From Heliocybe sulcata (lineage: Eukaryota; Basidiomycota; Agaricomycetes; Gloeophyllales; Gloeophyllaceae): a DNA stretch of 64,000 nucleotides. Position numbers and translations under genes: made by a program. Shown here in pieces: positions 18,533-21,479 of this stretch (within the stretch, counting starts at the first letter, position 1; every line of letters begins with the position of its first letter). The notes below the pieces were generated by a model. The model saw nothing but the letters and a program-made list of their open reading frames with translations. It had not been told where the DNA came from and searched no databases. The stretch lies in NCBI GenBank assembly GCA_004369045.1, contig ML213505.1:1423849-1487848 (forward strand). Reading direction: 5' to 3'.

Positions 18533-21479
18533 ATGTCGTTGAACAAGCAGATCCCCTTCCCCCCGGATTTGGACTTGAAACGCCAATCTGTAGAAGTCCC
18601 AGGGACTAAGAAGCCAGGGCAAACTGGTCTGTCTTTCCGAGTCCTAGGCGTTTGGATTGGCACAGGCTAACCACAGGTTTGGCGCTCGCTACGAACAGGT
18701 CATTACCGCAATGGTGTGTAATGGATTACCGACGTCGGGCCAAGGATTTGCTGATTTAAAGCTTCTCTGACGCCGCGTAGGATACTGGGGCCTTATCCCC
18801 GTTGGTGCTGAACCCAACCGGCTCAGCACTCTCTTAGATATATACAACAATGGCTACGCGCTCTCTAAGGACCTTCCTTTCCTCGGATACCGACCGAAGA
18901 TCTCGGAGAATGACTTCGCAAAGCAGTTCGTCTGGCAGACATATGGCGAGGTGGACGTTAGGAGGCGGGCTATAGGAAGTGCACTCCATGCCCTGTTTCA
19001 GAAGGGCGTTTTGGGCGGCGGTGACATGGAGACGGTCGGGATATGGAGTCAGAACAGACCTGGTACGTTGAATGCGTCTGGAGCAATGTGATGATGTGCT
19101 CATGGCTATGTGCGAAGAATGGCAAATCATCGACCTTGCACTGCACGCATACAAAAAAGTAGGGGTCAGTTTGTACGATACGCTGGGTCGGGACTCCGTC
19201 GGTACGTGATCCTGCTAAGCGTTCGGAGCTTCACCTAACAATCCCACCAGAATACATGTATGTATGCGGGACCGTTCATCTGCTACAGACCATTAATCCG
19301 CCTCTAGCATCCGCCACGCCCATCTCTCTGTCGTCTTTGCGACGTGGCAGCATATACCCACTCTCCTCAAGCTTGCACCCGGCCTTTCAGATGTTCTGAA
19401 ACTGATCGTCTGCATTGACGACGTACCTCCAAAGGCGAAGTTTATCTTGTCTTCTTGGGCTGAGCTCCAGAAGGTGCAAATCAAGGAACTTCACGAACGT
19501 AAGTATCATATAAATGATGTTCTGCCCCGTGGATTCACATATCGCCATGCCTCTCAGTCGAAGCGGAAGGCAGGGCAAATCTGATGGAACCTCTCTCTGT
19601 AACTCCGGACGACATCGCTTCTTTGTGTTACACTTCTGTAAGCTTTTGGGGCTCCGCATCACATGGCACACTGAAGTCAAGGATGTCTTAGGGCACGACA
19701 AGTACTCCCAAGGGTTAGTTGAACGTGCATCATATCTATGCATTGACTTCATACAACACTCTAGGTGTTGTCCTGACCCATGCGAACCTCACAAGTGCTG
19801 TCGACTCGTGTCTGCACGGAAGCGACTTCGATAACCGGGGCGTCCTCCTTTCATATCTCCCCCTCGCGCACATCTATGAGGTAAAGCGTGGCTCATAACG
19901 GGTTGGCTCTTGTCCTGACGAAACTACTCAGAGAATCTCCGAGCTGCTCGTCATCACCATTGGAGGCAGCATAGGCTACTTTACTGGTGACCCTCTGAGA
20001 CTACTGGAAGACGCTCAGATCCTGAAGCCAAATTACTTCCCCTCGGTTCCACGAGTGCTAAACAGAGTATACCAATCGGCCATGGTCGCTGGCAGCGCTC
20101 CGGGGTTGAAAGGCACGCTCTTCAAGAAGGCTGTTGAGGCCAAGCTTCATCGACTCAGAACGACTGGCATTAATACGCATGCGTTCTGGGACCGGCTTGT
20201 CTTCAGGAAGGTGAGACTTTACGAAAGGTGTCGTCTTGCTTCGTTGAGCTCATTTGGCAATTCAGGTTGTTGCAGCATTGGGTGGTAATCTGAAGATGGT
20301 CACTTGCGGGTCAGCGCCCATATCTCCTGACGTGATGGACTTCTTGAAGATTGCCCTCGCGTGTGATGTTGTCGAAGGTATTTTTGTCTCATTGTTTCAC
20401 AATACACTCCGATACTGACGGATGGTGCAGGGTATGATACTTGCCTATGGAAAAGAAATTGTGTGGTACTGAAACACAATTCACAGGTACGGCATGACGG
20501 AGAATGGTGCGACATGTAGCCGTGTATGGCCGAACGACCCGACTTCGAGCAGCACCGTCGGGCCTCCTCAGCCATGCAACGAGGTCAAGCTCGTTGATGT
20601 AGCTGCTATGGGGTACAGCTCAGAGGATAAGCCCTACCCACGGGGTGAACTTTGCGTGCGGGGTCCTAACTGCTTCTCCGGGTATTACAAGGGTATGCAC
20701 CTGTACAACTGAAGGAGATTTGTACATTGACACGGCAGGAGCAGATGAAAAGAACACAAAAGAGGCCCTGGATGATGAAGGGTGGCTGCATACCGGTGAT
20801 GTCGCTGCTATCGACGAGTGTGGTCGGATCAAGTTAATTGACCGTGTCAAGGTTCGTCTCTCTGATACGGCGTATAACCAAGTAATAATGGTTTGTGCAG
20901 AACATCATGAAGCTCGCACAAGGCGAATATGTGGCTCTAGAGAAGATTGAAAACCTTTACTCTGCATGCCCTCAGGTCGCTCAAGTATATGTGCATGGCG
21001 ATTCCTTGCAGTCGTACCTGGTCGGGGTAATTGTGCCCGATCCAGTACAGCTTGCCTCGCTTGCTTCGAGTGTTACCGGAAAGAAGCTGTCTCCAGAAGA
21101 CCAAGTGGCTCTAAGCATCGCTGCTAAAGATGAGCGAGTCATCTCCGCTCTCCTGAAGTCGCTGGATGTCGAGGCTCAACGGAATGATCTAAAAGGGTAA
21201 GGGAACCTGGTAAAATGTTCGGAGGTAGGCTAATATCAGTTTGGTAGATTTGAGTGCTTGAAGCGCATTCACGTCACTCTGGACCCCTTCTCGGTGGAAG
21301 ACGGCACCATGACTCCAACATTCAAGATTAAGCGGTTAGTCCTTTGTTGAATACATGATATCTCATCCTGAAACCGCTCTGTCATATCCAGGAAGGACGC
21401 ATACAACAAATTCAAGCGCGAGCTTGACGCGTTATATGCCTTGGGCGAGCCCGTTTCAGGACGAGTTTCAAAACTATAG
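18533..21479 (+). CDS. Long-chain acyl-CoA synthetase, peroxisomal (SKL ending), 688 aa
   Basis: Activates fatty acids to acyl-CoA with ATP, probably for peroxisomal beta-oxidation. Seventeen exons: 18533-18626, 18699-18713, 18781-19062, 19118-19201, 19251-19257, 19308-19498, 19558-19637, 19692-19713, 19765-19880, 19932-20210, 20266-20377, 20431, 20487-20692, 20745-20851, 20901-21196, 21248-21334 and 21392-21479. They total 2067 nt. The ATP loop CYTSGTTSTPKGVVLTH, the adenylate motif EGYGMTENGA and WLHTGD are all present, and the family length is normal. The protein ends RVSKL, a PTS1 signal. Exons of 15, 7, 22 and 1 nt are needed: the 7-nt exon restores VEYIIRHA, and the single G at 20431, between two introns of 53 and 55 nt, restores EGYGMTE. 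Catalytic residues look intact. Confidence 0.93.

Follow-up and report, generated by a model that had tools for sequence, protein, structure and literature searches.

Exons of a single base have been found in print in a handful of cases. Documented one-nucleotide coding exons occur in the plant genes APC11 (PMC4674806) and VPS55 (PMC8831610), and the closest described system is the one-nucleotide exon of Fusarium CYP621A (Nelson and Syed, 2026; PMC12940212). In its accessible text, the 2026 paper ranks the CYP621A exon as the second of its kind and the first to come from a fungal gene. Earlier papers bear on this claim of priority, at least in the portions that are available: single-base exons of Candida were described in 2016, in non-coding hosts (PMC5033589), and VPS55 was put forward in 2022 as a second plant gene (PMC8831610). 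Group II introns in fungal mitochondria are also described as separated by one-base exons (PMC12308204). Among basidiomycetes, the P450 genes of Phanerochaete chrysosporium are described as rich in micro-exons, the shortest given being 6 bp (PMC1184071). Keyword searches of open-access papers turned up no basidiomycete nuclear gene with a coding exon of one base.

A candidate for such an exon lies in Heliocybe sulcata, in a 64,000-nt stretch of DNA (hereafter the window; contig ML213505.1, 1423849-1487848) from a genome of 31.6 Mb in 51 contigs. Short, dense introns and 28 matched stretches of DUF6533, a family typical of Agaricomycetes, agree with an Agaricomycete genome; none of 14 control genomes gave a DUF6533 signal. 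The gene concerned, which we take to be Faa2-like, encodes an acyl-CoA synthetase whose CDS comprises 2067 nt including the stop codon and specifies 688 aa (Table 1). An earlier note on this DNA had counted 17 exons totalling 2067 nt and closing in frame, and this count was reproduced when the gene was aligned, with splicing allowed for, to a paralogue that the genome also carries. The AMP-binding Pfam domain PF00501 matches the product with an E-value of 2e-74, and the protein carries both this domain and the GxAP...[ED]GYGxTE core; the name Faa2 and the family features ascribed to this AMP-binding protein are our presumption. The three PDB alignments displayed, of carboxylic-acid-reductase type, have DGYGSTE at the site. 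All sixteen introns are GT-AG and there are no internal stops; judged by its letters, the gene is not evidently a pseudogene.

Table 1. Positions, within the window, of the acyl-CoA synthetase gene, its exons, the two introns of interest and the single-intron alternatives.
Feature	Position	Strand	Description
Faa2-like acyl-CoA synthetase gene	18533-21479	+	ATG to TAG, 17 exons; splice-aware alignment to paralogue
Exons 1-6	18533-18626, 18699-18713, 18781-19062, 19118-19201, 19251-19257, 19308-19498	+	Splice-aware alignment
Exons 7-10	19558-19637, 19692-19713, 19765-19880, 19932-20210	+	Splice-aware alignment
Exon 11	20266-20377	+	Terminates GAA G, base 1 of the Gly428 codon
Intron I1	20378-20430	+	53 nt, phase 1, GT-AG; branch-like CTGAC, 12 nt after its A
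Exon 12 (putative)	20431	+	Single G, middle base of the Gly428 codon (G/G/G)
Intron I2	20432-20486	+	55 nt, phase 2, GT-AG; branch-like CTGAA, 14 nt after the first A
Exon 13	20487-20692	+	Base 3 of the Gly428 codon, then TAC GGC ATG ACG GAG (YGMTE)
Exons 14-17	20745-20851, 20901-21196, 21248-21334, 21392-21479	+	Splice-aware alignment
Single-intron alternative	20361-20486	+	GT-AG; loses CDVVEG
Single-intron alternative	20394-20486	+	GT-AG; inserts IFVSL
Single-intron alternative	20380-20484	+	AT-AC; gives EGRYGMTE

Small exons also occur elsewhere in the gene. Exon 5 has 7 nt (AATACAT, with AGTACAT as its counterpart in the paralogue) and is flanked by introns of 49 and 50 nt; exon 2, which encodes HYRN, has 15 nt in both genes; and exon 8 has 22 nt, with a paralogue counterpart of equal length. 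The intron at 20693-20744 ends in a tandem acceptor (CAG GAG CAG), and its in-frame acceptors at 20741 and 20744 give products of 689 and 688 aa, respectively.

At the adenylation core, the letters run G at 20377, gtattt...ggtgcag, G at 20431, gtatga...ttcacag and GTACGGC from 20487, so that AGGGT at 20429-20433 leaves one base between two complete introns (...AG and GT...). Joining exon 11, the G and exon 13 yields VVEGYGMTENG, and leaving out the G yields VVEGTA*; base 20431 is thus needed to stay in frame and to keep the conserved peptide. The earlier note had held that exactly one base must be gained between the flanking exons and had read it as a single G between two GT-AG introns, one of 53 nt and one of 55 nt. 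The first point is borne out by the translation, and the positions, lengths and terminal letters of the second agree with the sequence throughout.

The alternative parses of this region were tested in three ways. The splice-aware dynamic-programming aligner was run with codons split by two introns either allowed or forbidden. With the one-base exon allowed, alignment to the paralogue scored 2030 with 17 exons and no frameshift, and with it forbidden the score was 2005: the best alignment then used the donor at 20386, took in two additional codons and shifted frame at 20487. Elsewhere in the 2067-nt CDS the frame runs unbroken. The interval 20266-20692 was then scanned for single introns of 30 nt or more with GT-AG, GC-AG or AT-AC ends; 85 of them, including 26 with GT-AG ends, stay in frame and free of stops, and none of the 85 keeps EGYGMTE. 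The earlier statement that any single intron here shifts the frame or leaves a stop is consequently too broad as worded, and it stands once retention of the motif is included. Finally, any two successive excisions with GT/GC-AG ends and at least 30 nt were enumerated, nested ones included. Among 139,375 ordered two-step excisions, 32,280 are in frame without a stop and two keep EGYGMTE, both of which consist of 20378-20430 and 20432-20486, removed in either order. Among the GT-AG and GC-AG excisions tested, the proposed one-base exon therefore appears as the sole motif-restoring solution, flanked by what look like ordinary introns.

The ordinariness of the two introns was assessed against 33 reference introns, namely 14 other introns of the target, all 15 of the paralogue and four of the six called in a further relative (C18), from which two introns called in poorly aligned stretches were dropped. 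Reference splice sites were scored leave-one-out and those of I1 and I2 with the full set. Reference lengths span 47-81 nt, a range that includes both I1 and I2. The donors score 6.09 for I1, whose GTATTT is below average, and 6.82 for I2. For I1, nine of the 33 reference donors and all 33 acceptors score no higher; for I2, the corresponding counts are 11 and 27. The I1 acceptor thus lies above the reference range, and the I1 donor and both sites of I2 lie within it. By these measures, I1 and I2 look like ordinary introns.

The arrangement can be compared with the described systems as far as their accessible texts allow. Like Fusarium CYP621A, it concerns a fungal nuclear coding gene in which the G within AGGGT stands second in a glycine codon, one that belongs to a conserved motif, and in both cases phase-one and phase-two boundaries would be mismatched without the base (PMC12940212). 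The gene family is a different one and so, by inference, is the phylum; moreover, the CYP621A exon is backed by 20 orthologues (24 genes in the discussion of that paper) and by RNA reads in two species, whereas the Heliocybe case is known from one genome sequence (PMC12940212). With plant APC11 and VPS55 it shares a frame-essential coding base between two introns, although those are plant genes and the base in Arabidopsis APC11 is A; reporter-construct tests exist for APC11, and RNA-seq or RT-PCR sequencing for both plant genes (PMC4674806; PMC8831610). The snoRNA hosts of the Candida parapsilosis group likewise have fungal nuclear introns one base apart, with splicing pathways traced by RNA-seq, but their transcripts are non-coding and have no reading frame at stake (PMC5033589). 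The adjoining introns and their consecutive removal recall the [D1,2] stwintrons of ascomycetes, in which one intron interrupts the splice signal of the other, whereas each intron here is complete (PMC12403724; PMC9024468; PMC5639578). The Heliocybe case joins an already known, very rare class of one-base exons.

The reading favoured here is that the gene has a constitutive one-nucleotide exon flanked by two independent U2-type introns that are both removed, to which we assign, from the genomic letters, a probability of roughly 85%. Under this reading, the spliceosome would remove the 53- and 55-nt introns one after the other by intron definition, and the leftover G would be ligated as the middle base of the EGYG glycine codon (GAA G/G/G TAC). 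The order of removal may be free. The I2 donor context, AGG/GTATGA, would be identical before and after I1 removal because exon 11 ends in AAG and the exon base is G; if I2 were removed first, the I1 acceptor would still read CAG/G. With one base between them, acceptor and donor are probably not engaged simultaneously, which suggests sequential removal. In translation, skipping the base gives a product of 430 aa, retaining I1 gives 440, retaining I2 gives 456 and retaining both gives 440. Every incomplete product stops early, and therefore the full-length enzyme would need complete two-step splicing. The earlier note had offered stepwise splicing of abutting introns as an alternative to a one-base exon. 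Stepwise removal amounts to the same gene structure, since both introns have complete signals in the primary transcript and either order leads to the same mRNA; a nested twin intron was not found among the GT/GC-AG excisions tested.

The main competitor to the one-base exon is a missing base. An assembly or sequencing error, or a recent and real one-base deletion in a dying allele, could have removed a G at the acceptor border of one 109-nt intron spanning 20378-20486, and one-base loss beside such an intron would look similar to what is seen. The border is a short G run (CACAGG/TAC), at which indel errors are plausible, and the acceptor at this border is a good one. A very recent lesion would also be traceless, as synonymous sites (dS) are saturated between the target and the paralogue, a saturation that also makes dN/dS unusable. 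We nevertheless consider this explanation unlikely. An intron of 109 nt would exceed even the longest of the 33 reference introns (81 nt), a second frame break is absent from the 2067-nt CDS, and the missing-base account needs a chance AGGGT that splits the intron into two that both pass. A control for this coincidence counted 109-mers in which AGGGT separates two introns that pass length, donor, acceptor and branch-site thresholds; with thresholds set after the case was seen, and with the shuffles leaving the first 4 and last 14 bases in place, such splits arose in 102 of 20,000 dinucleotide shuffles of the span, in 2 of the 494 GT...AG 109-mers on both strands of the window and in 347 of all 127,782 window 109-mers. 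Identity to the paralogue is higher downstream of the G (179/255) than upstream (248/421), reaching 46/60 in the next 60 codons, and therefore the downstream frame has been under constraint.

A single intron at another site, with the altered motif tolerated, is very improbable, although three such introns (Table 1) remain in frame without a stop. The donors of the two GT alternatives, at 20361 and 20394, score 1.86 and -5.14, respectively, against the values for I1 and I2 given above, and the ATTTTT that begins the AT-AC alternative presumably lacks the U12 donor consensus. All three would also change the length from GSAP through YGxTE, which is 29 residues in the proposed product, to 23 (20361-20486), 34 (20394-20486) or 30 (20380-20484). 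The motif was found in 77 of 81 relatives, all 77 with a spacing of 28 or 29. This set came from a search for fungal orthologues, which yielded 80 loci (the best of 560) whose titles mark them as prokaryotic and one locus of a viral collection; it was selected partly by EGYGMTEN, which biases the count. Least probable of the three, with hardly any weight, is a stwintron, in which an internal intron would interrupt a splice signal of an external one that becomes spliceable after the first step. The near contact of the two introns, and the need to remove them one after the other, do fit this picture, and stwintrons have repeatedly been described in ascomycetes, as the accessible parts of two papers indicate (PMC12403724; PMC9024468). 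The two-step search, in contrast, yielded two complete and independent introns alone; a stwintron with GT/GC-AG sites is excluded because, in both motif-keeping solutions, every splice site used is already there before the first excision. Two further candidates were rejected. Recursive splicing through a zero-length exon does not match the letters, in which one G separates AG and GT, and removal of the whole 20378-20486 span gives EGTA*. A ribosomal -1 shift at GAA-GGT was set aside as no slippery heptamer is seen there by eye.

The history of the proposed one-base exon was considered by comparison with relatives within the same genome, where six other places match and three of these were modelled. 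The paralogue (L004:1075-3969) has 16 exons and 2052 nt. All 15 of its introns share position and phase with introns of the target, and I2 is the only extra intron of the target. A single phase-1 intron of 50 nt interrupts the Gly codon in the paralogue (GAG G/gtgagc...ctcaag/GT TAC). The paralogue intron after exon 12 (L004 3162-3219) is GC-AG (AAAG/gcgtgt), and the target has GT there. A 54-nt phase-1 intron lies at the same Gly codon, here of a QGYG motif, in the C18 relative (L017, reverse strand), which we take to be a more distant synthetase. The C11 relative (L018, reverse strand), presumably a 4-coumarate-ligase-like gene, has a 49-nt phase-1 intron at the same Gly codon, also in QGYG; eight introns were called in this gene, of which the motif intron alone was considered, as the alignment is good only near the motif and weak in its remainder. 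In the C8 relative (L015), an open frame without an intron runs through the site with Ser in place of Gly (LPSYGMTE), and therefore at least one member of the superfamily lacks both the intron and the glycine. The Gly site is not included in the matches of C7 and C12.

A phase-1 intron is common to the paralogue and the C18 and C11 relatives, which places the origin of the I1 position before the paralogue split at the latest, and probably further back. I2, one base downstream, is probably an intron gain in the target, a direction that is favoured because loss of I2 alone from the paralogue, at a distance of one base from I1, would be less simple. A duplication of I1 was considered as the source of I2 and gained no support, as the two show no resemblance beyond shuffles (324 of 1000 shuffles reach the observed local score and 121 of 1000 the global one). 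An introner-like origin was probed by a genome search with the 109-nt span, in which the best candidates were scored and I2 alone (55 nt) is below the 60-base minimum; among those candidates, only the span itself was returned at E ≤ 10. The accessible text of the CYP621A paper shows its authors suggesting loss of a base followed by rescue, whereas intron lengths and the paralogue point here to gain of a second intron (PMC12940212). An alternative origin of the CYP621A kind, in which a base was lost and a cryptic AGGGT exon then rescued the frame, would presuppose an ancestral intron roughly double the size of those at this site in the three relatives. On balance, we favour an origin of the one-base exon by gain, in which a new 55-nt intron entered the exon just one base beyond an old phase-1 intron on its downstream side. 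This would be a different route from that suggested for CYP621A, and the exon would be the first coding one-base exon to be reported in a basidiomycete.

Each one-base exon demonstrates that recognition of two introns is possible when a lone base separates the acceptor of one from the donor of the next, and therefore exon definition is not needed. In H. sulcata, the paralogue, which has a single normal intron at this codon, and the target form a clean matched pair for splicing tests. The case also suggests that automatic annotation may misread the adenylation core of this acyl-CoA synthetase gene and of similar genes in fungi rich in introns. If true, intron gain would be a path to a one-base exon that is distinct from the base loss and rescue proposed for CYP621A.
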